Positions 3,005 to 60,386 of a DNA stretch of 64,000 nucleotides are shown piece after piece. The DNA is taken from contig OU452199.1 of assembly GCA_911728435.2 (NCBI GenBank), forward strand, positions 13,898,860 to 13,962,859. The letters run 5' to 3'. Every line of letters begins with the position of its first letter. Positions within the stretch are counted from its first letter, which is position 1. A model generated the notes under the pieces. It saw only the letters and a program-made list of their open reading frames with translations. It was not told where the DNA came from and ran no database searches. This stretch comes from Apoderus coryli (taxonomy: Eukaryota; Arthropoda; Insecta; Coleoptera; Attelabidae). The translations under genes and the position numbers were made by a program.

Positions 3005-3037
3005 CTGATGATGAAACCTGGTGTTTCCAAACATGCC
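3005..3037 (+). ncRNA. Decayed hammerhead ribozyme, family 2
   Basis: CTGATGA occurs at 3005-3011, followed by T and a five-pair stem II (GAAAC/GTTTC). The catalytic GAAA has become CAAA (3028-3031) and the sequence continues ACATG. The layout CUGAUGA-U-stem II-GAAACAUG matches the copies at 3160-3199 and 50928-50968. Downstream, near 3070-3090, lies ACGACTTTTATTGAAAT, related to the terminal sequence following the other family 2 motifs. The core change should abolish self-cleavage. Confidence 0.5.
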
Positions 3038-3159
3038 ATGATTTCTATTAAATTTGCTTCCCGGGCTTACGACTTTTATTGAAATTTAGATTAATAAAAT
3101 GACGTCAGCTACACAAAATAAACATACGTATATTAATTAATTCAGGGCATTGTGCCAGC

Positions 3160-3199
3160 GTCAGACATGTTTCGAGAACACACTCTCATCATCAGTGAC
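3160..3199 (-). ncRNA. Hammerhead ribozyme, type I, family 2
   Basis: Read on the minus strand: stem I GTCA (3199-3196), core CTGATGA (3195-3189), one unpaired T, stem II GAGA/TCTC around a six-base loop, GAAA (3173-3170), C-AT-G minimal stem III, cleavage triplet GTC (3166-3164), and TGAC (3163-3160) closing stem I. All core positions are present. Cleavage is predicted after the C of GTC. Stem III is only two pairs with a two-base loop but is palindromic (ACATGT), so a dimer could be the more active form. It lies at the inner edge of an inverted-repeat arm. Confidence 0.7.
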
Positions 3200-3682
3200 T
3201 TATACAAGTTTTATCCTTACAACATAGTAGGTATAAATATATATACGTTTTAAAATAGGATAAAATGAATGCATTATGATTACAACAGTTTTAATTATAA
3301 AGAGGTCTTACCATTTTGTGAAAAAGATAGTTTTATAAATTTTCTTCTACTACTAAATGAAATTAAAATAAAAACTCAAGTGAAAATTAAGGTGTTGGCG
3401 ATGAAGCCTAATCAGAACATTTTCTTTTCGTATATATCATATTAATGAATAAAATACTTTTAAAGATTAAATGCGTATGTTACACCAGACAAGCGCGTAG
3501 TTAATCAAAATTTGAGGTTAAAGATAGTTCAGCAGCATAATTGAAGTTAAGTACATAAAAGTAGATAAAATCTTCTAAAAGTAAATTGGAGGTATAGCCG
3601 AAGGTAGATCCCAAATTCTAGATGGGTACTCACCATATCAATAAATGATGGTAAGAGGAAAATTGTTTTAATATTGTATTTT

Positions 3683-3718
3683 GTGAAGATGAAAGAGAAA
3701 AGATTTATGTCTGACGCT
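3683..3718 (+). other. Hammerhead remnant at the right arm of the foldback
   Basis: The plus-strand sequence GAAGATGA...AGAGAAAAG...TATGTCTGACG aligns with the left-arm ribozyme. The GAAA box and the stem II pairing are destroyed. GTCTGACG, which contains the cleavage site and the 3' strand of stem I, is intact. Confidence 0.4.
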
Positions 3719-3795
3719 GGCAGAATGCCCTGAATTATATAATATATTCAAGTTCATTTTATGAAGCTGACGTCGTTTTACTAATTTAAATAATC

Positions 3796-6700
3796 ATCGC
3801 TCCTCTCCGAGATGGATTATTTCATTTATTTAAATACTTACAATAATTAAAAACAATACATATAATACATATACCGTAAAATTACATTATTTAAATTAAC
3901 ATGTTACTCTGAAAATTTACATAACCATTGTGTTATACGAACTTCCACATTAGGCCAAATGCAAAGGCAAGCAATTGAGTAACGAATGTCTTAAAAAATA
4001 CACCCAATACGTCTGAAATAAAAGCTCCACATCCAGCCTATACTTAAATTGAAACTATAAGTTTAGACAGCGACACATGAGAGATCGCAAATTTGCACGA
4101 TTGTGCGCAAACACGTATTTGCAGTTAGCTAATTGTTGCAGTCTTATATACATATCCTAATTCATTCATTCATTCATTCTATGCTTATATAACAGTATAG
4201 TTTCGATATCTTTATCTACAGAACGTATAAGAGCTCTTCAATCTAGGTGATTTTGTTGTTTGTTAAAAAAAAATAGATATTAACAGTTATTTTTTTAGTC
4301 CTATATATAGAATCATCTAATAAAGGTTAAGTTTATATGCTCAAAACGAATTTTTGGCAACAATTAAAAAATTAGTGCATAATTGGCCATCTCTCATACC
4401 TTCGGGACTGATCAAACCGCCTTAATGTTTCAAAATGGAATTAGGTTATCAAGTAGTGTACTATAGAGAATATGAATAATAATATGTAACTATACTAACT
4501 TACTAGATTATAGCCTTTCAAATTACGTGCCGCTACTGATGAAGTTTTCTAGGTATATTTTCCATTTTGTTACTAGTCACTGCAATCTATATGGCGGTTG
4601 CTTTTTTCTAAGAATCGATTCTCAATATCATTTGAATCCGTTGCTGTTCGAATATAATCGAAGCGAAAATGAACGGTAGCTACGCCCGTATACAGCATTT
4701 CAAATTATTTTATCGGTCGTTAAAATCTCCACGAGGTATTATGCCATCATGGTGTAGAAACGAGGAGTGTTCGCGCCCCTATTTCAGATAATAAACCATT
4801 TTAGAGCCGTTTTATATAAACCGTTGAGCACAACATGTGAGGTAATACTTAAATCCACTTAAATTTCCAAATGGCGAGCAAAATGTCGTCTTCAGCAGCT
4901 AATAGAGCTAATGGAGTTTCTGGCTTTATTTGAGTTTTGCAGGAGTTAGCGTAGACAACAAAACATGCCTAATATTAAGCGACAGCCTAGATTTTAGCAA
5001 ACTTTTATTTTTCGTCAATACGTCGATAATTTTTAAGTACAAATACATTTTAAAATGTGGAAATATCGCATTATTCCAGCACATCCTTATGATGAACAAT
5101 TAAATATTTACTTTTTATAACTTGAAATATGCTTGATGGGCCAAAAACTTTTAGTCTATAAATAAATTTTAAAATTTTTCCAAAAAAGAACGACGAAAAC
5201 AATTTCCTTAAACTGCTAAAACTCTGACTAATTTTACATCCTAATTGTTTTAATTTTTGGAAAGAAACATGCCTGAATAATGCTCAGGTGTCGTCAAACT
5301 GAAATTCGTTATATTTTCCTCAAACGAAGTCATCGTTAAAATATTATATATAATCTCCAATCATTAAATTTAACTTAATTTATACAGTACCAAACGATGT
5401 TTCGCTGTTTTATTTTTGCATAAACCGCACGGTTCTCGTGTTTTTCGTTCGACGCATAGCGTATCTATGCCATTTGAGGCGGTTCTGTTATGGTACATAT
5501 AAAAATGATGCCTACCGCAATATTATATACTGAACATGATGTTGAGGGCAAAACATATTTGTAAGAAATTGGGATATATAAAATTCAAATTTGATGGAAG
5601 AGACTAGGTTTTCATTTCCTCATTAAAAATATAATATTTGAGTACTTATTTTAAAATTATAAACTTTTAAGTAGCTGAAACTATATTCTGTGTTGAAAAA
5701 TTATTACGAATTATGATATACCAGCAAACTATTTCAAAAGCATAGAACTTAAAGAGTTTTTCAGTCTAGACAACTTAGCATAAAATAGGTACCAATTCGA
5801 AAAATGCATGCTGGAAAACACTAACTCAGATATTCGAAAAACCAAATTACAGACTTAATATACCCACTAGTCATTTGCATTAATATCCAAAAATACATTG
5901 AGTTTTAGGTGAAAGTTGGACGAATAGCATATACTTATATCTTATTTGCATAATGTAAGTAAAATGCATAAGAAACGGTGGAGTTGGTTGAATAAGATTT
6001 GTAGAAGGAAATGTATAAAAATAGTTGTTATTATTTCTGACAGCAGTTTCGTATTCGGAATTAAAATTGGGTGGGTAAACAATATTATGTCTACATGCAC
6101 AGGAAGACCTTTTTGAATGAATTTTGAGCAATAAGTATTTATCTTTGTTATTCGGTATTTTTAACCAGGCTTTACGTCAATGCTTCTATAATCAAAAAAT
6201 ACTATGTGAATCTGATATAGAATATACAGGGTGACTCACGTTGAGTGTTCCATACATTTATTGTAGTTTCGGATTCTATACAAGATTCTAAGTAAATTTT
6301 GTTAACCTATATACTCATTCCTAGGTATGAGTAACATTAAAAAAAAATCTATTCAACGAACGGTAATGTAGGTAATAACTCACGCAGATGGAGTTCGCCA
6401 CGCCTGAGGGTCGTACTGTAAATCAGAGTTATTCTCATTACAGCAAGTTGAATACTATACTTTATCTACAAAAATAACAATAAAACTCATTCATTTTGTA
6501 TATTTTAAAAATTCTGTCAACTTTTAGCATGCCACTTTGATATTAATAATACAATTTTTACAATATTGCCATGCAAAAAACGGCATTTCGGAAATAAAAA
6601 TTTAAGAGTTTCATTAGTTTGCCATTGATTTTCTGCAGACTTTGACAATATCACTGTACAATGTTAAGTTTTAAGAAAATTCTTGGCTCTTCAATTGTTT

Positions 6701-14229: not shown

Positions 14230-16729
14230 ACAGGAAGCTACCAAATTATAAAATGTTTTGTATTATGTAGGAAATTCTATTCTATAAGTCGTGAAAGGTG
14301 AAAGCCATATTAAATTTCTAAACATCCTACCCCATTCAATAAAAGAGGCAACAAAGTCTTTTTTTTTTTAAATAACTAGTAACAAAATTCATTGGGAACA
14401 TGACAAAATGCCGATTAAAATTGTTTTTAGCAGGTTGTATATTTGAAAATATTTTTAAAATACAGCTCGAATGGAGCTGCATATTAGACTAGTAACAGGA
14501 ATGGAAAATCGTATCTAGTTTTGCCGTACCTAAGACTCCGTGACGTTAATATGTTATTTCACATTGTTGCTTTGTTTGAAGTTTATTTTTTATTTTTTGG
14601 ATTAAAGTTTTTATCCCATAATTTTATGCATCATCGATAGCTGCTTGCCATCAATTATTTATATATTTTATATTCTTTACTTAGTTAGTTCTAGAAACAA
14701 CTGCAAAATAAAAAAAAATAGAACAAAAAACATAGTTTATCCCATATTATTTTATATTCCTAACATAATTTATTCAAATTTTAATTTAATATAATTTTAT
14801 TTTGCTGTTAGCATACAGCCTAGTCAAACATGTTACTTAACTTAGTATGATTTGTAGCTAAAAGCGATATTTATTACATTCCCTTGTTCAAAGTGTATTA
14901 AACTACGAAACTCTAAATTAATCCCAAGTTGCTTTGTCCGTGTTTAGGTACATTGAGATCCGTATCATGTGCATTGTCTAGAATTTATAGATATTCTCTG
15001 TTGATATGCAAAGACTAATAGTCGATTTGGAATTACTCCGTAGTGGCAGCGTAAATTCAACCAATATTATTTTATTATTTTTTTTTATGATCGATTTGTA
15101 CTTTGTCTGAACTAGACTGTATTGCTAAATAATTTTTGTATACAGGATAGTGTTGTGATCTTTTTTTAGTAAAACCCACTATAATCGACGAATAAAACTT
15201 GGTTAATCATTATTTCACCTAAACGCTTTTTTTTAATATCTCACTTTTTTATTTCAAATATAGTTATATGATTAGATTCCTTACATGTTTTAAATTATTT
15301 TCTCATAATACGTCTCTATATTTATTTTTAACTGTTTTTGAATTAATAATTTATTTTGGATATTTTTGGCCCAAAGCAGGTCTTCGAAAATATTCTATAA
15401 TTTTATCACTTTCCAATAAATAATAAATAAGTTCACAAAAACTTAATTTGAGTAATTATTATGCATGAGTGCAGCCAAAGAATGCAATGCATTGCTTGTC
15501 TGTCCCTATCACTATTAGATCACAATACAGTGGTCGGAAACTACCACTTTGTAAGTTGTGGGTTAATCTGTCAACATAATTGATTTATCTAAGGTATTCT
15601 TCAACTACCATCAAAATTTCAAGTGCCTGTCTATTCAGGTAACGAAACGGCGATTATTTTCTAGATACCGGTTTAGAGACCAAAAAAATTCATAAATAAA
15701 TTATTTGTTCAAAAACAGTTGAAGATAGGTATAGCGAAATTTTAACACAAATTACTCAAAAATGGATAAGGAATCCAAAAATATAATTATATACAAGGTG
15801 GTCTATTTGAAATAAGAAAGTTGGTATCACTTTCCGATATAACCTTTTTTTTATTATTGATCTCTGTATGAGTGAATTATATTGTTCTTGAAGGGCTGAT
15901 TATGAAAATTTATATTTCCGAAATATGTTCCCAATTTTTTATAAATTTTTGAACAACAGTTAGTGAAGACAGACTTTTGATTTCAATATTATTTTCATCA
16001 CTGTGAGAATGCACTACCACATGAAAACTTAAAAAAAGTGTTTTGGAAAAGGAAAAACGGGTTTTTTAATACAATCCAATATATGTTTTAGAATTATAGA
16101 TTTACTTGCAATAAAATTGGTAAAACAAATGAACAAAATATGAAACACAAACTAGGATCCTTATGCAATTATGCACACCTTGGTCATGATACTGACCATA
16201 AATCCCACAGTATACTTACGATGTGTTTTCGCCAAACATTGTACAAAAAATGTGTTGTGTTATTATTCCATAAGTAGCCTTTGAAAAGTATTTACATTTC
16301 ATAAATCACAAAACATCCATAATCTGCGAAGAAGTTAAAGTAACTCCTGACCATCGTAAATTATTTTTTTTCTCTAATTATTTTAATTATTAACCATGCA
16401 TTTAGGAATCCAATAAATATTATTAGGTTGGGCTCATTTTGTGTCATTTTAGACAAATGATTTAGTATACAATCGTAATAATTATAAAAAGATTTAATTT
16501 TAGTCTAGTATTTTAGCAATGGGGCAGCATGTGTCTTTGGTTTCTATTTTTTTTTTTATTTGAAATAACTGATTTTCAATCCTTGCTAGCATGAATATTT
16601 ACATTAGAAATAAATATAACCGATATATTTGGAACTTTACAACTTTTTTTTACAAACAATAGTGCACAATTTATATACTAAATGTAATGGGAGCACAGTA
16701 GTAAAAATTCTGTCTTTGGCAAACTTATT

Positions 16730-16732
<3 letters not shown>

Positions 16733-16762: not shown

Positions 16763-16769
<7 letters not shown>

Positions 16770-19759: not shown

Positions 19760-20790
19760 ATGTATACTATATAAATATACAGTTTGTTTCAGATGGCGCA
19801 TTATTTTGATACCAAATATCTTACACGGAATCAAAATAGTGCAGCACATGAAACAAAATATATATTAGAATCAAAATAGTGGGCCGTATCAAACGAATTG
19901 TATATTATTTCAATATAAATTTCGTTTTGTATGACGCATTATTTTGATTCCAAATATCTTACATGGAATCGAAATAGTGTAGCACATGAAACAAAATGTA
20001 TATTGGAATCAAAATAGTGTACCTTATCAAACGACATGTATATTCTGTCAATATACATTTCGTTTTATTTGACGCATTATTTTCATTCCAAATATCTTAC
20101 ATGGAATCAAAATAGTGCAGCACATGAAACGAAATGTATATTGGAATCAAAATAGTGTGCCGTATCAAACGACATGTATACTCTCGCAATATACATTTTG
20201 TTTTATATGACGCATTATTTTGATTCCAAATAACTTACATGGAACCAAAATAGTGCAGCACATGACACGAAATGTATATTGGAATCAAAATAGTGTGCCG
20301 TATCAAACGACATGTATACTCTCGCAATATACATTTTGTTTTATATGACGCATTATTTTGATTCCAAATAACTTACATGGAACCAAAATAGTGCAGCACA
20401 TGACACGAAATGTATATTGGAATCAAAATAGTGTGCCGTATCAAACGGCATGTATACTCTCTCAATATACATTTTGTTTTATATGACGCATTATTTTGAT
20501 TCCAACTACCTTACAGGGAAAGAAAATAGTGCCGCACATGAAACGAAATGTATATTGGAATCCAAATAGTGTGCCGTATCAAACGACATGTATACTCTCT
20601 CAATATACATTTCGTTTTATATGACGCATTATTTTGATTCCAAATAACTTACATGGAACCAAAATAGGGCCGCATATAAAACGAAATGTATAATCTGTCA
20701 ATATACATTTCATTTTACATGACGTACTATTTTGATTTCATTTATGTAAAATATGCATTTTGACTTTTATACGCATTATTTTGATTCCAC
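19760..20790. repeat. 138-bp tandem satellite with internal inverted symmetry
   Basis: The landmark CGTATCAAACG recurs at about 19884, 20022, 20161, 20299, 20437 and 20575, giving a period of 138 bases. About seven full or partial units are present. Each unit contains GGAATCAAAATAGTG and, further on, its inverted form CATTATTTTGATTCC, so every unit can fold back. Units at 20161-20575 are nearly identical and the outer ones diverge, the usual gradient of a tandem array. A detached half unit lies at 17590-17623, beyond the inserted transposon. Confidence 0.85.
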
Positions 20791-22804
20791 GTATTCAACT
20801 AAAGAAATTTCTAAATTAGGTAATGGGAAATATTTTAAAGGGTTATTTTGCAGCAAAAATAAGCAAAGCTAGAGCCCATTAAGGTTAGGGAAAAAGTTGT
20901 TTTTATTTAATAACTCGACTATGGAAGAATTTGGAAGAATGAAATGTAACAGTTAACTTCTAATAAAATGTGAGTTGGTGGTAGTTTTCATAATACTTAT
21001 TCGAACTACTATAGCGTCTCCTAAAATTGACATGTAACTAACTAAAATTCCTAAAAGAGCTCATCTCAATTATTAGAAGTCATAGTACTTTATATAATTT
21101 AATATTGTGTACAATAGTAAATGAAATCAAGCAAACGTCTACATATGCTATTCATGTCATAAACAGTAGGGAAATAAGGAACACGTTCAAGGTTTTTTAT
21201 TTACTTTAGTCAATATATCATCCCCGGGGTGGTATTGGAGCGTGCATATTGGTGATAGGGATGAAGCTTCCACATATGTAATTTTTATAATGTTTTAATT
21301 ATAATCTGAAAACTAAGCGTTTTTTGCGAGAAAAGTTGACTGAGATATCATCGCTAAAAATGTGCCAGTTTTTTTAGTTCGTTTACTTTAACATCATTGT
21401 TATTTACAGATTTGACAAGACGATAGTTTTTTACTCAAGTTAACTTGTTAATAATAAATAGATAATATTTTCGCATTTTTAACGATTAATTATAATTAAT
21501 GAGTAGAGCCTTTGGTGTAGGTAGACTAATTTGAACAAAACGTTTTATAAACCTTCACCACAACACTTTTTTAAAACTCTACGAATTAATTATTATAGTA
21601 AAATAATCGAGGTCTTTCGTTTCACAAAATTATAATTTTAGTAGGTATCTATATTTGAGGATTTTGTTAAATAAATAGATACGGAATTAAATATTTTCGT
21701 ACATTTGGTTCTAGCTCTTTAATCACTTTCTCAATAATATCTCATCCTCTAATATAATAAAATTTAAATATTTCTAATAAAAAAAATACATATCTATGTA
21801 CATAATATCAAATAGGCACAAGATATAGTGTAATTAATTCATTTCAAAAGCAATACAGTTTTACAAAACTGTGAAAATATTTATGTATTGTTATCAGATT
21901 AACTTGAAATACTTTTAGTGAAACTTAATTATCTAGTAAAAAGTTACAATTAAAACTATTTCATAGTGAACTTCAGAAAATAAAAAAAAATGACTAAACT
22001 TGTTGAAGACACCATGTGAACGGATAGTATAAATTTATTTTATTTAGTTTTAATTAATTATCAATACCTATACCTATGTCTGCTCAGATAAAAGATACGA
22101 GCAAAAAACAACCAAAAAATAGTATTTTCCTAGTTTTTAAATTGTTTTAGAATATTTTTTGCATCAAAAAATATGGAAAATTAGTTTCTCTACAAAAAGT
22201 TTCCTATTAGCTATACCTGAATTTTTCTTACTTTTCGAATTATAATAATTATTGTATTTCAACCCTATCTCCAGTATGCAGATTTATTATAGGAACTGAG
22301 AATTGATAAAAATTTTTATTTCTTATAATTTTAAAGGAATCAAAATAACGCGTAATATTGTAAGTTATCTACAACAACAGTGTTGTCATGTTTTGTAACT
22401 GTGGTTGAAATAAAGGATTCAATACAGTGCTCCTTATGTAACCACAAATATACTCTACTGTATATTAACAGCGCCAAAAGAAAAAAATTGCGGAATTTCG
22501 GTGAACTAAAATTTATTATACATCTTTCATAAATAGCATCAAACTGATTCCCCTATCGGCTTAACGTGACCAACTAAGAGAATGCCATTAAATAAGATAA
22601 AAAATAGACTATGAAAAAAAATGAAAGCCCTAAGATCTGTGTCTGTAACTTCAATACTATGTGAGATATAAGGCAAAACTATTTTGCGTCCGATATTCGG
22701 ACGTAAAATAGTCAAGGAAACAGTTTGATATGTGACGAGCTATAAGAGGGACGCAAAATAGTGTGCGGGATGTATATATATATATATATATACGAGTATA
22801 AATA
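20791..22804. other. AT-rich sequence without a recognised gene
   Basis: No coding signal. A small hairpin, CTATTTTGCGTCC/GGACGTAAAATAG, lies at about 22680-22712. GACGCAAAATAGTGTGCGG near 22751 shares words with the satellite. A (TA)n tract lies at about 22770-22791. Confidence 0.5.
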
Positions 22805-23189
22805 TATAGTTAATTTTTTTTAAATTTTCTTGATTTTTGGTCACAGGTAGAAATAGTCAAATTTAATTTGTTCAATTTATTAACGTTTCGACCATAGTTT
22901 GGTCTTTCTCTCTCTCTCTCTCTCTCACACACAAGATTACAACAATTTTGTATTCGTCATATTTTTAAAAACAACTACTATCTATATGTTTTAAAAAATA
23001 ACATAATTAGTAAATAGTAAATAGTAGTTGTTTTTAAAAATATGACGAATACAAAATTGTTGTAATCTTGTGTGAGAGAGAGAGAGAAAGACCAAACTAT
23101 GGTCGAAACGTTAATAAATTGAACAAATTAAATTTGACTATTTCTACCTATGACCAAAAATCAAGAAAATTAAAAAAAAATAAACTATA
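22805..23189. mobile_element. Long foldback with hammerhead-like motifs in both arms
   Basis: The left arm (about 22805-22981) and right arm (23021-23189) are inverted copies about 170 bases long with few differences, around a loop of about 40 bases. Each arm contains GACCAAACTATGGTCGAAACGTT, on the minus strand at about 22886-22910 and on the plus strand at about 23089-23113. That is a stem II GACC/GGTC followed by the hammerhead GAAAC box. The CUGAUGA half is replaced by a GA-rich microsatellite, so self-cleavage is not expected. The arms point outward from the motif, the same plan as in the other hammerhead foldbacks. As RNA this would form a long, nearly perfect double strand. Confidence 0.75.
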
Positions 23190-23303
23190 TACAAGACTGG
23201 TCAAAGAACATAAAATAAAAAACTAACAATATATATATATATAATATATATAGAATTTATTCAACTACTAGTTGAGTCACTTTAAGTGAATATTTTGCTT
23301 TAG

Positions 23304-25697: not shown

Positions 25698-26421
25698 TGA
25701 AATTACTGTACAACGCTTAACCACAAATTTCTCAACTAAAAATATCTAGGCGAATATACCAAATATCCAAAGTCCAGAGGCGTTAAGTTGGGTGATCTTG
25801 CTGGCCGAATTCCGATCCATCTATTTGGATATGTTTCATTTGAAAATCTGCGAACGCTGGTACTAAAGAAGGATGGCGCTCCGTCGTGCACAAACCACAT
25901 TTCAGCACGAATATGTGGTATTCTCATTGGCTTGATGAGATGGTAAAACGTCAGCCGACTTTCAGGGTCCTTTGGTAAAACATTTCGCACCTGTTAGACA
26001 TGATACGGATGGAGTAACTGCTCTCGTAGAATGTTATTAATTGTACTTCTGGAAATCTCCAAAATTACTGTACAACGCTTAACCACAAATTTCTCAACTA
26101 AAAATATCTAGGCGAATATACCAAATATCCAAAGTCCAGAGGCGTTAAGTTGGGTGATCTTGCTGGCCGAATTCCGATCCATCTATTTGGATATGTTTCA
26201 TTTGAAAATCTGCGAACGCTGGTACTAAAGAAGGATGGCGCTCCGTCGTGCACAAACCACATTTCAGCACGAATATGTGGTATTCTCATTGGCTTGATGA
26301 GATGGTAAAACGTCAGCCGACTTTCAGGGTCCTTTGGTAAAACATTTCGCACCTGTTAGACATGATACGGATGAAGTAACTGCTCTCGTAGAATGTTATT
26401 AATTGTACTTCTGGAAATCTC
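25698..26421. repeat. 362-bp tandem duplication within the mariner
   Basis: Unit 1 (25698-26059) and unit 2 (26060-26421) follow each other without a gap. I find one difference between them (GATGGAGT at about 26009, GATGAAGT at about 26371). The unit covers the C-terminal transposase codons and the region up to the left inverted repeat. Such high identity means a very recent duplication or an assembly artefact. Confidence 0.9.
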
Positions 26422-29266: not shown

Positions 29267-30055
29267 GATTTATTTATATATTGTTAACCTAAGCTCATGA
29301 TGGGGGTTTTATACTCCAAAACATGTCACTAAATCTTTAGAAACTAAGTTAAACTTTGTGGAGGTGTTTTTTATTGATATTTTATTAGCGCTTGCACCAC
29401 TCTGCATATTTTTTCACAAAAATTTTACCCGCATATGAATATCCTAAGCATTATAAGAGCACTGCAACTAACTGTAACTCTCAAAAGTTAGAGGCTATTA
29501 TAGTTTAGGATTCACTATGTTGGATTGTTGGGTGAGTTCTTCAGTAGTTGTCCTCGTAGAGAAAGAATTTGTATACTTTTAAAAGTAAAAATTCCAACTG
29601 ATTTGGTAATTTATATGTATATCACTCCAAATCTGTTTACAAATAGAATATAGCTATAGGCAACAGTTCTTGTAAAATGCTGGTCTAATCGAAAGTTTAT
29701 ACTGTTATGTTGTGTAGTTATTTAAAGAACAAGTGTATTAATAAGGGCGACACACAATCGAGATAATTTAACGCGCGAGATGGAAAAATAAATTAATATT
29801 TCATTATTCATTTCTATATTCACGTTAGGTACCATCCATATAAACAAACTTGAAATGGACATCTACGATGAACTAAACCAAAACATAATTATTATGAATA
29901 TCAAGACTTTATGGTTTAGATTGTTTTGATATCGCTTCATTTAACTCCGCCTATCAGTAGTCGACAAATTAAGGCCTATCAAGGATAGGACATATTAAAT
30001 TCTTGTAACTAATTTTAGTATAATATTATGAACTGCTTTTTGACTGAGACTATAG
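29267..30055. other. AT-rich sequence without a recognised gene
   Basis: No coding region, structured repeat or RNA gene was recognised. Confidence 0.5.
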
Positions 30056-35351: not shown

Positions 35352-35656
35352 CAGAAACGACACACGGTTTTTGAGATGTCCCATAAAAAACGTCTTCTCT
35401 CTATATGGCTGAACCATAACAAGGTACAGCCCTATTCAAGGTTGAATTGGCCAGAAACGAATTTTTTAGTACCATAACAGCACTTATAGCGAGTATCGTA
35501 GGTCATACTACTAAAATTAACTTCGCTGGAAAACCTGCTATTTCTCAAACCTGTTCTTATGTTACATGTGGCACATCATTGTACTCAGAACGACAGCAGC
35601 ACTTAAAAGTGCCCTAAAAAGTAGAGGTTACAATTTGTAACAAACATGAATTAATG

Positions 35657-35745
35657 AATTGCTTGTTACATAATGTAACAGGTGAACTGTGTTTCACCGG
35701 GCATATTGCCTGCTCTCACTAGATATCGCCAAACACATCTTGTTG
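35657..35745. repeat. Fragment of a family 1 hammerhead element without the ribozyme
   Basis: ATTGCTTGTTACATAATGTA (35658 onward) is the inverse of the right flank of the ribozyme element at 58 kb (about 58192-58208). ACTAGATATCGCCAAACACA (from 35718) matches the left module of the element at 60111-60386 (from 60184). The order corresponds to the left part of a family 1 element. No CUGAUGA/GAAA core follows. Confidence 0.5.
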
Positions 35746-38584: not shown

Positions 38585-38765
38585 TTTTAAGAGTGTGTCT
38601 GTCAAACACTGTACTTTCACCAGACAGCTGTTGCGTCGATCTACGACTCATTTCTCTTCACTCTTTCTATACCACAGCTAAATTAAGAGTGACTGTATAT
38701 TACTGGCCGGTAACCACTGACAAGTCGAGGATGGACTTGTTTAGTTAAACCAGCCCAAACAACTT
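38585..38765 (-). mobile_element. Degraded family 1 hammerhead element
   Basis: On the minus strand, 38650-38585 reads ATGAGTCGTAGATCGACG, then CAAC, GTCTGGTGAAAGTA and TTGACAGACA.ACTCT, clearly homologous to the element at 60280-60355. GAAA has become GCAA and the CUGA half is lost, so this copy is inactive. The opposite arm lies at about 38700-38762, where GGTTAACC-type and GTTTAG.TAAACCAGCCC sequence corresponds to the inverted terminal repeat of the 60-kb copy. Confidence 0.6.
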
Positions 38766-39373: not shown

Positions 39374-39772
39374 AATAAGTTTGATTTCCGTACACTTTGT
39401 CTACCCATCAATACTATCACTAAGTTATAATTTAAATTATTATTTTCCGATGTAGATTTCTTGATTATTATATTGAATTAAGTTTTAGTTACTAATAGGT
39501 ATGCATAATATAATTAAAACAAAATCTACATGGTATGATTTTCATTTAAATTATGCTCCACTCCTCTTCTATATTTTTATGAATAAAATTAGTGACATTT
39601 TGAAATTTTCAAGGCCGAGTTTTTTGGAGATGATTTGGAGTTATATAGAAAAATTATTTGTGATGCTTACTGCTTACCGAATGCTATTGTTGCTCTCTGG
39701 GAGTGGTCTCTTTCTAATAGCTTGAAATTTAATATCGAAAACTATTTATTACACACTATTATTTACATATCT

Positions 39773-39937
39773 GTACCGTATGGGGTATATACCACATTAT
39801 TTATGGCTGTGAAATTCTGACCGATCACCACTGATGAGTTGTGGATCGACGAAACGGCCATCTGGTGAAAGTATTGGGAAGTTGACAGACAAACTCTCGG
39901 AATTTAAGTCTTGTTTTGATAAACAAGCCCATTTCTA
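39773..39937 (+). mobile_element. Family 1 hammerhead element, left end incomplete
   Basis: CTGTACCG, GGGGTATATACCACATTATT, the ribozyme core, GTTGACAGACAAACTCTCGG and GATAAACAAGCCCATTT occur in the same order as in 60211-60386. The right inverted repeat is present (39910-39934). The left inner arm is damaged (TATGGCTGTGAAATTCTGACC) and no left terminal repeat was found. Confidence 0.7.
39826..39867 (+). ncRNA. Hammerhead ribozyme, type I, family 1 (weakened)
   Basis: Stem I CACCA (39826-39830) pairs with TGGTG (39863-39867). CTGATGA is at 39831-39837, stem II is GTTG/CGAC with one G-U pair, and GAAA is at 39851-39854. The cleavage triplet is ATC instead of GTC, so the second stem III pair becomes C-A. 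The NUH rule is still met, but stem III is destabilised and activity is probably low. Confidence 0.7.
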
Positions 39938-40141
39938 ATATAGAATACTATTGTTTGATCAGTTTTTTGGATGTCAAATCCAGATTTCCTACTCAGTATG
40001 CAATGTGACCTATTGAAGTATGTTAATACATTTAATTTTAATTTTATAACGATTTTATGTTTCAATAATTTCCACTAGTTGTGTGTATAGATAGATGTTT
40101 AAATAATCCATGCCATACTGTGTTTGACTTGTAAACATGAC

Positions 40142-40184
40142 GGCCACTGATGATGGAAATTTAAGTTTCCGAAACATTTCTGGC
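40142..40184 (+). ncRNA. Hammerhead ribozyme, type I, family 2 (cleavage site altered)
   Basis: GCCA (40143-40146) pairs with TGGC (40181-40184) as stem I. CTGATGA is at 40147-40153, then T and stem II GGAAA/TTTCC with five pairs. GAAA is at 40171-40174. The triplet is TTC rather than GTC, losing the second stem III pair. Confidence 0.65.
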
Positions 40185-40250
40185 ACCACAATTTGATTTT
40201 GAACATATATATGAGTAATTTGCTGGAGTAGACGTAGTTTTATTTGTATA
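40142..40250 (+). mobile_element. Family 2 hammerhead terminal segment
   Basis: The ribozyme core is followed by ACATATATATGAG and ends CTGGAGTAGACGTAGTTTTA. The minus-strand segment 50968-50860 has the same order: core, ACATATATAAT, then GTGGAGTAGACGTG and TTTTATTGAAAT. The shared tail defines the terminus of this family. Confidence 0.6.
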
Positions 40251-50859: not shown

Positions 50860-50968
50860 AAAACACGTCTACTCCACAAAATGATGATGTATATAATATA
50901 TTATATATGTTGAAATCTACAAATATCAGCCAGACATGTTTCGGATCATATGTCCATCATCAGTGGCT
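50860..50968 (-). mobile_element. Family 2 hammerhead terminal segment
   Basis: Read on the minus strand: ribozyme, GATATTTGTAGATTTCAACA, an AT palindrome, CATCATTTTGTGGAGTAGACG and TGTTTTATTGAAAT. The tail is shared with the segment at 40142-40250 and with the palindrome at 25031-25094. Confidence 0.65.
50928..50968 (-). ncRNA. Hammerhead ribozyme, type I, family 2 (best preserved)
   Basis: Minus strand: AGCCA (50968-50964) pairs with TGGCT (50932-50928), giving five stem I pairs. CTGATGA is at 50963-50957, followed by an unpaired T and stem II GGA/TCC. GAAA, the minimal C-AT-G stem III and GTC follow in order. All core positions and the cleavage triplet are intact. Stem II is only three pairs and stem III two pairs, so the monomer may be weak. 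Palindromic ACATGT allows dimerisation. Confidence 0.75.
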
Positions 50969-52279
50969 AAAGTAACCTTAGTTTAGTTACATAAATGTGA
51001 GGGTTATTTTTATGTTTTGTCTATGATTTAAACATTTATACACATCTGTAAAAAATTACTTATTTGAGATATACTGTACTAAATTATCACATGAAATCTT
51101 ACATTTTGTCGAAAATTAGATTAATTGTTAATGTTACTTAAATAAAATAAAATTTAAACCATAACTTTACGGGATTAGTTAATCTCTGTTTTTATTTTCT
51201 TTCTTTTTCTCATTCTAGTTGAAATATGTATTTATTAATTATAAGATCAACACATCAAGCCATTTTATAGTATAAGTAAATAAAAAACAATAGCGGTCCT
51301 GATAATCAAATATTATTAGTACCTGCCTATGTAATGATTAATTTATTTTTTTTGGAGTATATGATTACTAGCCTATTATTGACTTGCGTTTGAGTATATT
51401 TGTTTATGTCCAATAATTGAATATTTACAGTATTTGCTGTATATTTACTATAGCAATAAATAGAACGAAGTATTTTTAATGATTTATATACACATTATTA
51501 TGTAGTTGTGTTCAAAACATTTTAATATAAAAGCGCTTTGTTTGTGTTTTTCCATTTTATATCAGAATAAAAAGAGAGTTGGAAAATATTTTGTTAGTTG
51601 TTTACAGAACCGTTAGTAATTCATCAGCTTTTACATTGAATTACAAAATCATTTGCAGTAGTGTGTCGCTTTGTACAAGCTGGCGTTGCATTAATAATGT
51701 TCACGTGTTTGCTTTAATTTAGACAAAACTCAAATAACAATGTATTTATGCTTTTGTTATTGTGCAGATAATGTTATTTATTATAATTTTTTTTGTTTAA
51801 TTAATTTTATTTTTAAATGCCTATTTTGTATTTCCAATCTGATAGCTCGCCTTAATTCATGGCTCTATACGAAATGTTTGGATATGACGGAGTGTACTCA
51901 AGAGTGTTAAAGGTATCCCCAATATACTTATGCCGCGCTTGTGTATGTCTGAGACATCCTTTATTGGGCTGCCCTTCTATTAGGCGCAGTGTATATCTCG
52001 TATGGCAGTCATGTTGCCTACGGAAAATAGACGTGGTATACATCATTAAATTTTCTGTGGCTTAGTATTTAAACCTAGAACCACAAAGAACACCAAGAGA
52101 CGAAGGCCAGCCGAATCCCTTTTAAGTTGTCAGGTGCCCTCATTTAAAAATGCGTGAGTGCTGGTGGTGCCCTGTGCGCGTATTGATACTTTTATACAGT
52201 GTATATTTTTCGTGTGTGTCTTAACGCTTAAAATTACCGGGTAGCATTAGCATGTTTTTTATGTAATGTTTTTTATGCT
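50969..52279. other. Sequence without a recognised gene upstream of the LINE
   Basis: AT-rich to about 51850, then slightly GC-richer. No endonuclease domain is visible before the LINE reverse transcriptase, so this is probably target-site DNA. Overlapping frames on both strands at 51852-52065 have no recognisable domain. Confidence 0.45.
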
Positions 52280-54354
52280 AGGTTGGACGATGTGATTTCT
52301 GCATCAGTACCGGTTTCATATGCAAGAAACTGCAAATATCCGCCTTGGTTCTCGAGTGATGTCGTTCGGAATATCAAATTAAAGTCTAGGCTCTGGAGGA
52401 AATATAAAACTTCTGGTGATCCTCACTTTCTGAATGAATTTCGAGTTTTGCGTCAGATTATTAAAACTGAAGTGAACTCTTCATACAGAGTTTACTTGGG
52501 TGATGCTGAGCGTAGACTTAATGGTGACCCTAAGACTTTCTGGTCATTTATAAATTCTCGTAAAAGTTTTGGACGTTTACCTAGAGATATGTATTATAAT
52601 GGCGATAATATTAAAGATCAGCAAGAACTTGTGGATAAATTTGCTCAATATTTCAATGAATCCTATGTCAATTCTCTGAATGTGTCCTTTTTGTCTGATT
52701 GTGGAGTTACTGAATCTGAAGTTTACGGAGCTCTTAGAAAGCTCAAAGGTAAACCAACTGCAGGTCCGGATGGTATACCATCCTTTTTGGCTCGTGATTG
52801 TGCTGCGGTATTGGCTGGGCCATTGTGTTCCATATTCAACCTTGCTTTACGATCGACTAATTTTCCTGCGTTTTGGAAGTTTTCAAGGGTGACGCCGGTT
52901 TTTAAAAAGGGAGATAAGCATGATGTAGGAAATTATCGTCCTATATCAATTCAATCATGTTTTGCGAAAGTGTTTGAGTTTTTACTACATGATATTATAA
53001 TGTGTCATGTTAGACGACAAATTTCAACTGTGCAGCATGGTTTCTTCCCGGGTCGTTCTACATCTACCAATTTATTGGTTTTAACCCAGTTCCTGAGTGA
53101 ACAACTTGATAATGGAGGTCAGGTAGATGTTATCTATACTGACTTTTCCAAGGCCTTTGACAGACTTGATCATGGTGTCTTGATGGCTAAATTGTGTCGT
53201 TTTGGTCTATCCAATGGTTTGCTCCTTCTCTTGGATTCATATTTAAATGGTCGTTATCAATATGTTGAGTATAGAGGCTTCAGGTCTGTCAATTTTTTAG
53301 TGACCTCAGGAGTCCCCCAGGGTTCTGTGTTGGGGCCATTGTTGTTTTTGTGCTTTATTGATGATATTTCCAGTGGCTTGACTAGTAGTTCGCTCTTGTA
53401 TGCCGATGACTTCAAGATATACTCGGTCATTGATAGTGAGCATGATTGCTCTGTTATTCAGGAAGACCTTAACAAGATTTATGAGTGGTGTGTTCGCAAC
53501 AATCTTTATTTGAATATTGAAAAATGTTTTTCAGTTTCTTATACACGCAGATTAAAGCCTATAACGTATTTGTATTTCATTCACGATTCTCCATTGGTTG
53601 TTTGTGATCGTATTAAGGATTTGGGGATTTTCTTTGATAGCAAACTAAACTTTATTGAACATTACAATTATATGATTTCAGCTTCGTATCAGTCTCTGGG
53701 TTTTGTCATGCGTAACGCAAGGGATCTTAGGTCTCCTCAAACACTTATTGCGTTATTCAATGCATTTGTTAGGGCTAAGTTGGAGTATGCCTCAGTTGTG
53801 TGGAGTCCTACATATGAATTTCATTCGGCGAGTATGGAACGTGTTCATCGTCGTTTCGCTAAGTTTCTGTGGTTTCGTAGCGATGGAGTTTATCCAGTCA
53901 TTGGATTTCCACATGATACGCTCCTAAATCGTTTTAATTTGACATCTTTAAGTACCCGTAGAGAATATTCTGCTATTATCTTCCTGTACAAAATTATTAA
54001 TGGAGATATTGATTGTCCAGAGCAGTTAGAATTGCTTCCATTTTATGTACCTAATTTGCGTACACGTAATAATAATACAGTTTTTTACTTGTCAAGAGCA
54101 CGCACTAATTTGTTGTTGCATTCTCCTTTGTTCGTAATGTGTAATATTTGTACCCGTGTGTCTAGTGATTTTGATATATTTGATTCAAATTTGTCATGTA
54201 TAAAACATTTATTTTTTAAGTAATTAGTTTAAGTTATTAATTAGTTATTATTGTTATTTTGATATTATTGTATTATTTGTAATTTTTACCTGCCCTTTAA
54301 TTGGATATTTATCTGTCTGGGCAGTTGTATCTTAAATAAATAAATAAATAAATA
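52280..54354 (+). mobile_element. 5'-truncated jockey-superfamily LINE
   Basis: The element comprises a reverse-transcriptase frame, a short AT-rich 3' untranslated region with a potential stem (CTGCCC at 54290-54295, GGGCAG at 54319-54324) and a tail of AAAT repeats (54334-54354). Such 3' stem-loops and simple-repeat tails are usual where a LINE enzyme recognises its own RNA. The 5' side stops just before the reverse-transcriptase linker, so ORF1 and the endonuclease domain are missing. I found no target-site duplication. Confidence 0.85.
52283..54223 (+). CDS. Non-LTR retrotransposon reverse transcriptase, N-terminally truncated
   Basis: This protein would copy LINE RNA into DNA at a nicked target. 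The 646-codon frame is uninterrupted. Residues 1-100 are the linker seen after the endonuclease (YPPWF at 19-23, DPKTFWSFI at 82-90). GPDGIP is at 161-166, TPVFKKGD at 204-211 and NYRPIS at 217-222. The catalytic block YTDFSKAFDRLDH spans 285-297, SGVPQGSVLGPLLF 342-355 and YADD 373-376. The C-terminal thumb (about 440-520) contains LGIFFDSKLNF and EYASVVWSP. The first codon is TTG with no in-frame ATG nearby, and the frame is open back to 52232. It is the surviving 3' part of a longer ORF2, not a gene with its own start. Intact catalytic residues and lack of stops indicate a recent insertion. Clade: jockey/CR1-like; finer placement would need a tree. Confidence 0.92.
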   Translation: MDDVISASVPVSYARNCKYPPWFSSDVVRNIKLKSRLWRKYKTSGDPHFLNEFRVLRQIIKTEVNSSYRVYLGDAERRLNGDPKTFWSFINSRKSFGRLPRDMYYNGDNIKDQQELVDKFAQYFNESYVNSLNVSFLSDCGVTESEVYGALRKLKGKPTAGPDGIPSFLARDCAAVLAGPLCSIFNLALRSTNFPAFWKFSRVTPVFKKGDKHDVGNYRPISIQSCFAKVFEFLLHDIIMCHVRRQISTVQHGFFPGRSTSTNLLVLTQFLSEQLDNGGQVDVIYTDFSKAFDRLDHGVLMAKLCRFGLSNGLLLLLDSYLNGRYQYVEYRGFRSVNFLVTSGVPQGSVLGPLLFLCFIDDISSGLTSSSLLYADDFKIYSVIDSEHDCSVIQEDLNKIYEWCVRNNLYLNIEKCFSVSYTRRLKPITYLYFIHDSPLVVCDRIKDLGIFFDSKLNFIEHYNYMISASYQSLGFVMRNARDLRSPQTLIALFNAFVRAKLEYASVVWSPTYEFHSASMERVHRRFAKFLWFRSDGVYPVIGFPHDTLLNRFNLTSLSTRREYSAIIFLYKIINGDIDCPEQLELLPFYVPNLRTRNNNTVFYLSRARTNLLLHSPLFVMCNICTRVSSDFDIFDSNLSCIKHLFFK

Positions 54355-58000: not shown

Positions 58001-58047
58001 ATGAATAAAACTTTGTTGAAAAATTTGAATTTGCTTCGCATGCGGAA
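55025..58047. other. AT-rich sequence without a recognised gene
   Basis: Less AT-rich parts (about 57110-57420 and 57490-57720) hold minus-strand frames of up to 89 codons without recognisable domains. I see no repeats or RNA genes. Confidence 0.45.
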
Positions 58048-58208
58048 GGCAGTGTGACCCAAATTTGTTGGAAATTTGGGTCACACTGCCTGCCGATCAC
58101 CACTGATGAGTCGTGGATCGACGAAACGGCCGTCTGGTGAAAGCATGGTGGTGTGAAACAAATTTCCAACATAACTTAAAGTCTTGTTGCTTTATGTAAC
58201 AAGCAATT
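58048..58208 (+). mobile_element. Family 1 hammerhead element, 58-kb copy
   Basis: A perfect 19-base hairpin (58048-58066 and 58072-58090, loop GTTGG) directly precedes the ribozyme. Downstream, GGTGGTGTGAAACAAATTTCC (about 58146-58166) pairs imperfectly with the 58072-58090 strand and extends stem I. The segment ends with GTCTTGTTGCTTTATGTAAC and AAGCAATT, the inverse of 35658-35679. The flanks differ from those of the 60-kb copy, although the ribozyme is identical. Confidence 0.7.
58098..58139 (+). ncRNA. Hammerhead ribozyme, type I, canonical
   Basis: Stem I CACCA (58098-58102) pairs with TGGTG (58135-58139). CTGATGA is at 58103-58109. Stem II GTCG/CGAC (58110-58113 and 58119-58122) closes the loop TGGAT. 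GAAA is at 58123-58126. Stem III has A-U and C-G pairs with a GGCC loop, and the cleavage triplet GTC is at 58132-58134, cut predicted after C58134. Every core position agrees with the hammerhead consensus. GAAACGGCCGUC resembles the short palindromic stem III of the known schistosome repeat ribozyme. Confidence 0.92.
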
Positions 58209-58639
58209 CTTTAAAATATTTGTTTGATTGGTTTAGAATAGTGCCTCTCTAAAAAAAATTTATACATATCTGCATAATCTCCATCTAATTCAACAAATTT
58301 CAGTTGAAAGAGCGCCAAATCTTAAAAGGCAATTGCTAATTTCACAAGTGATTTCATATATCCCCATATTTTGAAAATCTAACGCATTAAAACGTGTACT
58401 TTTTGCAGGCAGCTATTTGACTTCCACACCCTATCCATTTAAAATTAATATTCAGAACAGAATCCCACCGGTCTTTAAATGCACAAGAGCACCTATCTAA
58501 CATAAATATTTAAATATTATATCCCAGCGTAGAGTTTAGGGTTAAGGTAATTTTTCTAAGCAATCAACCAATTTTGTTTTAAGTGAGAAATGTAACTAAA
58601 ATTCACCGTTTAAATATGAAAACAAAAATGTGTTGCGCA
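58209..58639. other. Sequence without a recognised gene
   Basis: CCACACCCTATCC near 58431 could be the 3' terminus of the mariner remnant at 58640-58970 (on the minus strand, GGATAGGGTGTGG). Nothing else is recognised. Confidence 0.4.
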
Positions 58640-58970
58640 TACCACATCAATATTAATTTTAAACTCATGTTGAACCTGTCCTTCCACAATGCGGTTCGTA
58701 TGCATTTATATTATTTCAGAAATGCTTGTTTCTAAAGTTGAATATTCTCCGTCGTTTAAATGTGGCTTCGTCAGTAAACACAACAAATAGCGGGAAATTC
58801 TAGATATTATATACATGCAAATATATTTTGCATGGCCGTTAAACAGTCCTTGTAGTCATAAGCCTTACACTTATCTCTGACCTTTCAGCAACCTGAATCG
58901 AAACTTCTTTTAGATCCACATTGCGTCTATTTCGTCGTTGAACAGTATCTCGAAAAGAATTACGTAGCTT
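58640..58970 (-). pseudogene. Mariner-lineage transposase, central fragment, broken
   Basis: Minus-strand pieces: RDTVQRRNRRNVDLKEVSIQ and VAERSEISVR (about 58955-58870), matching the helix-turn-helix region. Then comes VFTDEATFKRRRIFNFRNKH (about 58780-58720), containing the first catalytic aspartate in FTDEATF. FKINIDVVC (about 58660) corresponds to F.INVWCG. Stops and frameshifts separate the pieces, and no DGAP motif follows. It belongs to the same broad family as the 25.7-kb element and holds the section that element has lost. Confidence 0.7.
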
Positions 58971-60110
58971 TACAAAATAGCTTATTTTTGTTAATATTGA
59001 CCAGATGCGTGCGGTTTATGTACAACACGGGGCTTCCCCTTATATAATAGTATGACAAACTATTTCAATTATTTAAATGTTATTTATTATATTTAAATGG
59101 TACTTTCGGAAGTCGTACCTAGAATATTTACATTTTCATCTGAACCTGAACTAGATACTATATTGTGAATTGAAAAATGCGTAATAGTAAACTAAATTGA
59201 AAAAAAGTTGATGTTTCACTTCAATGATGGTAAAAACGAAAAAAGCACGCAGTTTAAAAATGTGTTGAATCATTTTTGCCCCCTTTAGCAGCTATGTATC
59301 CGAACAATCTAATCAGTCTTCGCCATAAATTCAGTTTGAGCCGTTTTCGAGTAATCGCGTAAACAGACATGCAGACTGACAAATAGAAATTTTGTAAAAA
59401 CGGTTTATTTCCGTCTAAAAAGAAAAAAAAAGCATTTCCGGTGAAAATATATATCTTTTCATGAAATCCAATAGATTACAATAGCAAAAATTTACAAAAA
59501 TGTGTTTACATTACTACCTTCTAACTTGGTTGTTATTGGCTTTAGCGCTAACTGAATTTAATTTTATCTAAAAACTTTTTTTGCAAAAAAACTGATGTAA
59601 AATAATTTATCATAACCCTGTATATTGTGCTTAGTTTTGAATAAAACGAACAAATCATAATATTCTGTATCTATCTATACGGCAATGGTGATAGGCAGAC
59701 CTGGAAACTTAATGAAAACTTTGTAGCCAGCTTTCCAAGACAAGAGGAAAAGGAGTGAGGTAGATAAACTTCAAGAGAAAGTTTAAGATCTGTATTTCCT
59801 TTTTAGTTAGGCAGTGTTGAAATCATTAAAAAACGAGCTTACTACGTGCCGAAGAATGCAGAGATCGGGTATCTCAGCTTGATGGCAAGAAGAGGCTGAT
59901 AGTCGTTTATCGGCCAACTTGGTAATGCATCAAATCACTTAGACTACAAATATTATCAAGGGTTAACTTTGTGTAAACCGAAATTGTTTATTGGGAAACA
60001 AAATAACGCAATATGTTATACAGGGTCGTTTGATTTACCTACTTTTCCACCAACCAACTACCAACACATAGACGCGCCGATACTCCCTTGAGCGGGATCG
60101 CCTATATTTG
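58971..60110. other. AT-rich sequence without a recognised gene
   Basis: TATACAGGGTCGTTTGATTT near 60017 is a possible isolated transposon end. Nothing else is recognised. Confidence 0.4.
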
Positions 60111-60386
60111 AAATGGGCTTGTTTAACAAAATAAGATATAGCCGATATAGGAACTGTTTTTACTCGGCGTACTACCAACGAAAACTAGATGTCGCCAAAC
60201 ACATCCTTTTACATCTCTGTACCGTTTGGGGTATATACCACATTATTTACGAGAGTTTGGCTGTCAACTACTGACCGATCACCACTGATGAGTCGTGGAT
60301 CGACGAAACGGCCGTCTGGTGAAAGTATAGTGGTTGACAGACAAACTCTCGGAATATAAATCTTGTTTTGTTAAACAAGCCCATTT
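60111..60386 (+). mobile_element. Compact hammerhead element with terminal inverted repeats
   Basis: The 27 bases at 60111-60137 (AAATGGGCTTGTTTAACAAA...) are the reverse complement of 60360-60386 with one mismatch. Inside, 60251-60273 pairs with 60328-60350 (GAGAGTTTG.CTGTCAAC) and brackets the ribozyme, extending its stem I. The left half carries an extra module of about 113 bases (60138-60250) containing TCGCCAAACACATC and GGGGTATATACCACATTATT. There is no open frame. The 276-base unit looks complete. It resembles non-autonomous ribozyme-bearing retroelements, but terminal inverted repeats of this kind are unusual for them. Confidence 0.8.
60280..60321 (+). ncRNA. Hammerhead ribozyme, type I, canonical
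   Basis: Identical to the ribozyme at 58098-58139. Stem I CACCA (60280-60284)/TGGTG (60317-60321), CTGATGA 60285-60291, stem II GTCG (60292-60295)/CGAC (60301-60304), GAAA 60305-60308, stem III A308-U315 and C309-G314 with loop GGCC, and GTC at 60314-60316 with the cut predicted after C60316. Outside the ribozyme an imperfect 23-pair helix extends stem I, so a transcript should fold efficiently. Confidence 0.93.

Follow-up and report, generated by a model that had tools for sequence, protein, structure and literature searches.

Hammerhead remnants of a retrozyme family and of Penelope-like elements in the genome of Apoderus coryli, and their partly shared insertion anatomy

Penelope-like elements (PLEs) are said, in work by Cervera and de la Pena of 2014 and by Lunse et al. 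of 2017, to carry a type I hammerhead of minimal form close to their 3' end, adjoining the RT/GIY-YIG coding region. The anatomy of their insertions is described for Penelope of Adineta vaga (PMC3846280) and Poseidon of Anolis (PMC11167929), in which inverted pLTRs stand head-to-head, one of them with an optional 30-40-bp tail. The RT start sites of both are internal to the RNA (PMC3846280, PMC11167929); the Poseidon start lies about 85-92 nt past the ribozyme cut, as calculated here from two figures (PMC11167929), and the target duplications of A. vaga Penelope measure 8-10 bp (PMC3846280). Metazoan non-LTR retrozymes (mussel, coral, and axolotl) are characterized, in the available part of PMC7229834, by a canonical type I hammerhead, tandem copies, a strongly self-paired RNA, co-occurrence with PLEs, units of 170-400 nt, and a GC content below 45-50%. 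The available parts of PMC7229834 and PMC7761336 name PLEs as likely candidates for the enzyme that mobilizes animal retrozymes. The window analyzed here, a 64-kb stretch of the A. coryli contig OU452199.1, contains about ten real or decayed hammerheads left by two retroelement kinds, designated families A and B; both kinds of element are already known, and the insertion anatomy that they partly share is the new point.

Hammerhead motifs of the window

The initial annotation had listed 16 hammerhead or hammerhead-derived sites in the window, about ten of which stand. Full type I hammerhead folds were found at four of them (3160-, 50928-, 58098, and 60280), while at two others (39826 and 40142), outside the exact-fold set, the core is intact and stem III weakened. 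Four further sites (3005, 3683, 38615-, and 45998-) are decayed copies with model or homology support, and four (32735-, 37065-, 39331, and 43019) are doubtful. The remaining two, 22886- and 23089, were rejected, being the arms of a palindrome (22803-23191) without a CUGAUGA core; a match to MIR7533 at 22887-23107, in the same palindrome and under the MIR7533 cut-off, was rejected as well. A suspected A-B chimera at 39826/40142 proved to be two adjoining copies, with no joint sequence on reading by eye.

The pattern CTGATGAN{4,30}GAAAC had six matches in the window, against a shuffle mean of 0.21 and a shuffle maximum of 2. The Rfam check proposed in the initial annotation came close to dismissing the motifs, with no match across the 64-kb window at the gathering threshold; at E<=10 the sole hammerhead matches were 58097-58140 and 60279-60322 (Hammerhead_1, E 1.2e-4), both at 33.8 bits, just under the cut-off of 34 bits. 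This outcome was reversed by a family-specific covariance model, R1, which was built from 15 family-B hammerheads, all taken outside the window. Strong R1 scores were obtained at three sites, and the model added two decayed sites to those previously listed (15895-15930 and 29297-29327). Weaker scores were given to 3000-3044 and to the family-A hammerheads at 58097 and 60279 (18.7 bits each), the exact folds of which were recorded at 58103 and 60285; the weakest were those of 39825 and 39330 (13.9 bits each, E 0.11) and 32729- (11.4 bits, E 0.63). The features of the window are as follows.

3000..3044, + strand: decayed family-B (PLE-type) hammerhead; R1 19.2 bits, E 2.5e-3; GAAAC box changed to CAAAC
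3084..3831, - strand: family-B insertion whose arms, 3084-3168 and 3707-3791, form an inverted repeat of 85 nt (84.7%); PLE-type tail on the right arm, left arm without it; right end approximate; site 3683 belongs to the inverted repeat 3084-3791 as its decayed arm
3158..3201, - strand: intact family-B hammerhead at the left arm of the 3084 insertion; R1 54.4 bits, E 4.3e-14
15895..15930, + strand: decayed family-B-like hammerhead, new; R1 21.7 bits, E 4.4e-4
29297..29327, + strand: partial decayed family-B-like hammerhead, new; R1 19.3 bits, E 2.5e-3
35650..35740, no strand assigned: fragments of retrozyme subfamily A2 without hammerhead; BLAST against the A2 segment of locus L019, 84-88% over 31, 38, and 59 nt
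38590..38651, - strand: decayed family-A retrozyme hammerhead (site 38615-); matches the A1 unit at 88.7% over 62 nt
39762..39942, + strand: family-A1 retrozyme copy, matching the A1 unit at 88.4% over 189 nt; hammerhead 39825-39868 with weakened stem III; 3' end about 80 nt past the cut, at site E1
40141..40186, + strand: family-B hammerhead with weakened stem III; R1 47.5 bits, E 5.3e-12; tail checked and none seen; about 105 nt are homologous to loci that include L043, L002, and L018
45990..46040, - strand: decayed minimal hammerhead of a different PLE family (site 45998-), without an R1 match; matches, at 76% over 63 nt, the L022 hammerhead region, which lies 543 nt downstream of GIY-YIG
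50927..50969, - strand: intact family-B hammerhead of a tail-bearing 3' end, with tail motif; R1 53.0 bits, E 1.1e-13; 73-78% to L018, L002, L015, L005, and L029 over about 125-160 nt
58060..58214, + strand: family-A2 retrozyme copy with hammerhead 58097-58140; Rfam Hammerhead_1 33.8 bits; 98.4% over 128 nt to the A2 segment of L019
60052..60392, + strand: family-A1 retrozyme insertion with hammerhead 60279-60322; Rfam 33.8 bits; 95.3% to A1, in both orientations; inverted left arm (60052-60136) stops at E2 and right arm at E1

The window's own family-B copies are remnants or non-coding derivatives with no coding found: six PLE frames searched against the window by tblastn had no match better than E 1.8. 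EcKL kinase frames, which are typical of insects, occur in the genome.

Families A and B across the genome

Hammerhead core matches numbered 20,403 genome-wide (428 Mb), the control giving 2,791; the many genomic relatives foreseen in the initial annotation do exist. The local density that it had considered striking is not unusual here, since the whole genome is dense in core matches: the window holds only about twice the genome mean, with 3.05 matches expected per 64 kb at the genome rate and P(>=6)=0.09. Among the core matches listed, 47 of 73 distinct ones had a stem II of at least 3 bp, compared with 10.8 after shuffling (largest 20), and the stem II sequence was highly varied. The four genome-wide matches to Rfam Hammerhead_1 came from just 73 of 52,198 first-look candidates scored and therefore carry no information on copy number. 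Folds, R1 scores, and family homology bear out that the motifs are hammerhead-derived and fall into several families; the split between canonical family A and minimal family B, as well as their partly shared insertion anatomy, had been missed.

Family A, with 2,848 copies found genome-wide (control, 0), belongs to the non-autonomous non-LTR retrozymes; its unit measures 333 bp and contains a canonical hammerhead. Like the published metazoan retrozymes, as the available part of PMC7229834 presents them, it combines a canonical type I hammerhead, tandem copies, co-occurrence with PLEs, and a unit within 170-400 nt. Its RNA is strongly self-paired (MFE -121.4, z -6.8, for one unit in a linear fold), and the GC content is 45%. 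Among 100 exact copies listed, 16 same-strand neighbors were counted, 15 of them spaced 331-339 b; the copies listed span C1 from 0.44 to 33.7 Mb. The hammerhead assignment of family A draws on the full folds in the window, its sequences being too uniform for a covariation analysis.

Family B groups minimal type I hammerheads located close to PLE 3' ends. Across 15 sequences, 98.7% of cells were paired, and 33 double, compensatory changes were counted versus 8.8 after shuffling; self-cleavage is predicted. As in PLEs with minimal hammerheads, the motif lies near the 3' end and adjoins RT/GIY-YIG frames; two features that may set family B apart are a U that bulges out between core and stem II (15 of 15 aligned sequences) and the many stem II sequences. 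RT and GIY-YIG domains occur in the same insertions as family-B hammerheads. In L017, an RVT_1 frame (4595-5767, Pfam) lies between two such hammerheads, with 99.7% identical arms, a 12-bp duplication, and a GIY-YIG-like motif read by eye; in L018, the GIY-YIG domain was identified by Pfam. At seven of 30 GIY-YIG loci, a same-strand motif was found 196-766 nt downstream, of the B type in L029 only, and at 19 of the 30 no motif was found downstream. The relatives beside PLE RT/GIY-YIG frames that the initial annotation had proposed to look for were recovered. Some PLEs of this genome have long open frames, of up to 774 aa around GIY-YIG.

Insertion anatomy of the two families

Many copies of both families stand in head-to-head pairs with the ribozymes facing outward. 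Among the 100 exact family-A copies listed, neighbors within 2.5 kb included 14 divergent and no convergent pairs, and among 150 GIY-YIG hits scored, all 19 neighbor pairs within 8 kb were divergent. The two ends of a pair are unequal. In family B, one arm carried a tail and the other did not in six of six clear pairs, the tail being 38-40 nt long in the three pairs measured; in family A, the arms differed in six of six insertions read. When A1 pairs were scored by position alone, using exact matches only, the E1-E2 segment was present on exactly one outer arm in five of seven, on neither in two, and on both in none; that all five unequal pairs had it on the right-hand arm counts, like the two pairs without it, against a common machinery. 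One A1 pair (C1:21378283) was counted in both sets, the seven position-scored pairs and the six insertions read. Also against it, family A has three 3' end sites, at about 68-80, 120-129, and 229-238 nt after the cut, where PLEs use two; the first end lies 53-76 nt after the ribozyme cut in four B insertions and 68-80 nt in A. The possibility that the 3' end sites of both families share an RNA fold was rejected, since no such fold was found (z 0.24, 1.23, and -1.61).

Exact target duplications of at least 12 nt were found in three of six insertions of each family (each P<=3.3e-4 versus a pooled null), although under locus-specific nulls the matches of 12 in L017 and L051 stay within the 99th percentile (15 and 32; repeat-rich or short loci). 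The duplications are 12 bp long and AT-rich. They were absent from three of the six A insertions examined (L004, L019, and window 60052); in family B, the matches in L005 and L018 were no more than suggestive (P 0.02), and the window's 3084 insertion had no convincing duplication (best match P 0.047). The junctions read were few, with ends placed partly by eye and several loci chosen for being paired. Family B resembles A. vaga Penelope and Anolis Poseidon in its head-to-head pLTR pairs, the tail on one arm, putative RT start sites internal to the RNA, and short duplications (exact in three of six), and differs in their length of 12 bp and in partly sharing this anatomy with an enzyme-less retrozyme. 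Family A, in turn, differs from metazoan retrozymes as described in the available part of PMC7229834 in that many of its copies form head-to-head pairs with 3' ends that are unequal, some of the insertions having a 12-bp duplication; no description of PLE-type anatomy in retrozymes was recognized in a partial literature search.

Mobilization of family A

The motifs are probably the footprints of two retroelement kinds using one insertion machinery. The canonical hammerhead would cut the family-A transcript to unit-length RNA (333 nt), which would probably be circularized afterwards. At the target, a PLE RT/GIY-YIG protein would make cuts in the two strands at a distance of 12 bp, and each target end would prime cDNA synthesis on the element RNA, starting from a small set of fixed positions past the ribozyme. 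The two cDNAs, both 5'-truncated, would then be joined head-to-head, the order of these steps being the one that we infer. Such joining would leave outward-facing ribozymes, unequal 3' ends, and a 12-bp duplication, and copying round a circular retrozyme RNA would yield 333-bp tandem units. If the two ends of one insertion start at different RNA sites, this would account for the PLE tail as well as for the head-to-head pairs seen in both elements. The anatomy suggests that the small element, lacking its own copying enzyme, borrows that of the large one; since A insertions resemble those of the resident PLEs, they lend partial support to the idea, already stated in print, that PLE enzymes mobilize animal retrozymes. 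The general proposal that animal retrozymes are PLE parasites, with the PLE protein performing two-ended target-primed reverse transcription on retrozyme RNA, is evenly poised. Because this genome has retrozyme copies in the thousands and numerous PLEs, of which some keep long frames, the idea of PLE mobilization can be tested in it by junction counting, and the unequal pair ends bear on the insertion mode of PLEs, relatives of telomerase.

Mobilization of family A by a LINE (non-LTR) reverse transcriptase instead of a PLE is unlikely. LINEs are present, among them a 663-aa RT frame inside the window, and the available part of PMC7229834 lists them as candidate mobilizers; however, in the window's LINE family, compared by copy spacing alone, none of the 100 copies listed (from 135) formed a close pair, and head-to-head pairs, unequal ends, and 12-bp duplications are common to A and PLEs. 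It is also distinctly improbable that a DNA transposase moved family A, with the arms as foldback or MITE-like terminal inverted repeats and the hammerhead as cargo. Although inverted pairs are frequent among A copies, as are inverted repeats without hammerheads in the examined loci, 15 of 30 close A neighbors among the copies listed are head-to-tail units 331-339 b apart, the distance between paired copies ranges between 139 and 622 b in the same listing, and the outer ends were unlike each other in every one of the six insertions read.

An origin of family A as a satellite spread by unequal crossing-over or rearrangement, with head-to-head pairs as breakage products, would fit the tandem 333-bp units and the copies that lack a target duplication. 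It is very improbable in view of the dispersal of the listed copies along C1 (0.44-33.7 Mb), the exact duplications of at least 12 nt at three of six insertions, and the absence of convergent pairs among the 100 copies listed. Chance or convergent matches to the hammerhead motif are scarcely credible: the Rfam model alone gave two near-threshold matches and six of the 16 listed sites were doubtful or wrong, but the covariation of family B, the R1 scores in the window from a model trained outside it (E 5e-12 to 4e-14), and the excess of genomic core matches over the control contradict this explanation.

Hammerhead motifs in the window and in the genome

The initial annotation had reported about fifteen hammerhead or hammerhead-derived motifs at a striking local density. 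The window spans 13898860-13962859 of contig C5. At the Rfam gathering threshold, the window contained no hammerhead matches, and at E ≤ 10 two type I hammerheads were recovered, both near threshold. The exact core CTGATGA..GAAAC occurred six times, versus 0.21 in shuffles. A descriptor requiring all three stems yielded five exact folds (none in 20 shuffles) and, with one mismatch permitted, eight sites (1.95 in shuffles).

Exact folds found in the window by the three-stem descriptor
3195, minus strand
50963, minus strand
62528, minus strand; passes this simple descriptor, without confirmation by a covariance model trained on 15 family B sequences
58103, plus strand
60285, plus strand

Across the 428-Mb assembly (129 contigs), the core pattern was found 20,403 times versus 2,791 for the reversed control, in agreement with the many repetitive relatives expected initially. 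Since this count predicts 3.05 matches per 64 kb, the six in the window are unremarkable (P 0.09), and the claim of a striking local density was not upheld.

The proposal of several sequence families was borne out, as the motifs sort into two families by stem II, stem III, and an extra U. Family A, the hammerheads of a candidate retrozyme, has a 4-bp stem II directly adjoining the core, and its stem III is a short hairpin (39826, 58098, 60280, and the relic 38615-). Family B, found near the 3' ends of Penelope-like elements (PLEs), has an extra U before a stem II of highly varied sequence and a 2-bp stem III (3160-, 40142, 50928-, and the relics 3005 and 3683). The extra U between core and stem II was present in all 15 aligned family B hammerheads from loci outside the window; viroid hammerheads carry a similar extra residue. 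Across 15 family B sequences taken elsewhere in the genome, pairing held in 98.7% of cells and double changes affected 33 cells versus 8.8 in shuffles; the covariance model built from these sequences matched the three non-relic B sites of the window (E 4e-14 to 5e-12). This covariation test was limited to family B because family A sequences are too uniform for it.

Other repeats in the window
19760-20692: tandem array of a 138-bp unit, 6.8 copies, with inverted repeats among units
22803-23191: palindromic element without a hammerhead core, matching a microRNA model below that model's cut-off
25700-26424: tandem pair of 362-bp copies, 99% alike
37004-37203: palindromic element resembling a hammerhead in a core-like match alone
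43019 and 62504-62564: one repeat family, also at L011:5332-5531 (another locus of this genome), with a hammerhead-like core CUGACGAGCUC..GAGCGAA lacking a convincing stem III; its copy at 62528- is the one among the exact folds above
52232-54223, plus strand: LINE reverse transcriptase frame (RVT_1) open over 663 aa without interruption; one of its 40-mers occurs 135 times in the genome

Affiliation of the two families

Family B derives from PLEs. In locus L017, an RVT_1-domain frame (4595-5767) with a GIY-YIG-like motif identified by eye lies between B hammerheads 4135- and 6351+; the arms of this insertion are 99.7% identical over 639 b, with a 12-b flank common to both sides. In locus L018, GIY-YIG was placed between the two B hammerheads, so relatives beside Penelope-type coding frames, as the initial annotation had suggested seeking, do exist. 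Its statement that no Penelope reverse transcriptase lies nearby also held, a search of the window finding no PLE coding. Among the 30 best GIY-YIG loci (coding strand clear in 29, the exception being L029), a hammerhead-like motif occurred in 11 and was not seen in 19; in seven of the 11 it was on the same strand, 196-766 nt downstream, the types being mostly other than B.

Family A is retrozyme-like. A 41-mer of its motif had 2,848 genomic copies at ≤3 mismatches (control 0), and one 333-nt unit had a predicted fold of -121.4 kcal/mol (z -6.8). On contig C1, the 100 exact copies listed gave the following arrangements for neighbours no more than 2.5 kb apart: 11 ++, 5 --, 14 -+, and 0 +-. Same-strand spacings were 331-339 b in 15 of 16 cases, the remaining one being 476. 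Loci L019 and L020, about 30 kb apart and with zinc-finger frames, contain related pairs of subfamily A2 whose flanks resemble each other; a single insertion was apparently duplicated together with its surroundings.

Paired arms, 3' ends, and target duplications

Opposite-strand A neighbours were divergent in 14/14 cases among the listed C1 copies, and close GIY-YIG neighbours in 19/19 (from 150 hits scored among 1,260 candidates). In the window's LINE family, none of the 100 listed copies (135 in total) had a close partner, the smallest spacing being 44 kb. Convergent neighbours do exist in the unsorted core list, since close neighbours at the start of C1 were 7 -+ and 2 +-. The 26 B sites fell in 21 insertions, and in ten of these an inverted partner lay to the 5' side; both inverted matches located 3' (L005:2632 and L043) were past the element end. 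Inverted repeats without hammerheads were frequent in the loci examined, so pairing by itself is not decisive; several loci of the pairing sample had been chosen beforehand for being paired.

The arms also differ in their 3' ends. In family B, the distance from the predicted cut was 53-76 nt for the first end (four insertions measured) and 93-111 nt for the end of the optional tail (three measured), with one arm of each sort in all six clear pairs (L005, L006, L009, L017, L018, and window 3084). L007 and L015:8209 look similar, but their partner arms are short or diverged; L008 and L014 were left out owing to excessive decay. Family A ends at E1 (~68-80), E2 (~120-129), or E3 (~229-238 nt after the predicted cut), and the arms ended differently in the six insertions read (L001, L004, L019, L051, L052/L053, and window 60052). 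The second end lay beyond the locus or could not be read clearly in L016, L020, window 39762, and L006, which were excluded along with window 58103 (left arm stopping short of the ribozyme). The E1-E2 segment of subfamily A1 had 929 copies at ≤3 mismatches. By position and exact matches only, it allowed 7 of 14 A pairs to be scored, the unscored seven including the known A2 pairs L019 and L051; exactly one outer arm carried it in five, neither in two, and both in none. The right-hand arm on C1 had the longer end in all five unequal A1 pairs; this may be due to chance or to biased sampling in the list of exact matches.

Exact target duplications (each P ≤ 3.3e-4, pooled null of 3,000 flank pairs)
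L051, family A: 12 nt
L001, family A: 13 nt
L052/L053, family A: 17 nt, of which 5 may be microhomology
L006, family B: 14 nt
L009, family B: 13 nt
L017, family B: 12 nt

Weaker B flank matches had pooled P values of 0.02 (L005 and L018) and 0.047 (window 3084). No target duplication was found for the A insertions L004, L019, and window 60052, three of the six A cases tested. Under locus-specific nulls, the L017 and L051 matches fell within the 99th percentile.

Probable insertion mechanism

Both the A and B elements belong to known kinds; PMC7229834 and PMC7761336 already present metazoan retrozymes and propose their PLE-driven mobilisation. The A. vaga Penelope, as portrayed in PMC3846280, has head-to-head pLTRs (terminal repeats), one of which may carry a 31-bp tail, together with 8-10-bp duplications; the joints are explained there as self-priming on an antisense template. 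The alternative proposed here is priming at two ends, which is favoured by the unequal ends, although not proven. For an anole PLE, PMC11167929 gives internal RT start sites and extension on both strands. The motifs are probably the footprints of two kinds of retroelement with one common insertion machinery, a reading made slightly less confident by the right-hand arm bias and the locus-specific nulls. The point of interest is that retrozyme A appears to bear, at least in part, the insertion signature of the PLEs in the same genome, on few junctions and with half of the A cases lacking a visible duplication. At 3000-3084, an older, decayed B copy is followed immediately on its 3' side by the start of another B insertion, hinting at a preference of PLEs for their own ends as targets.
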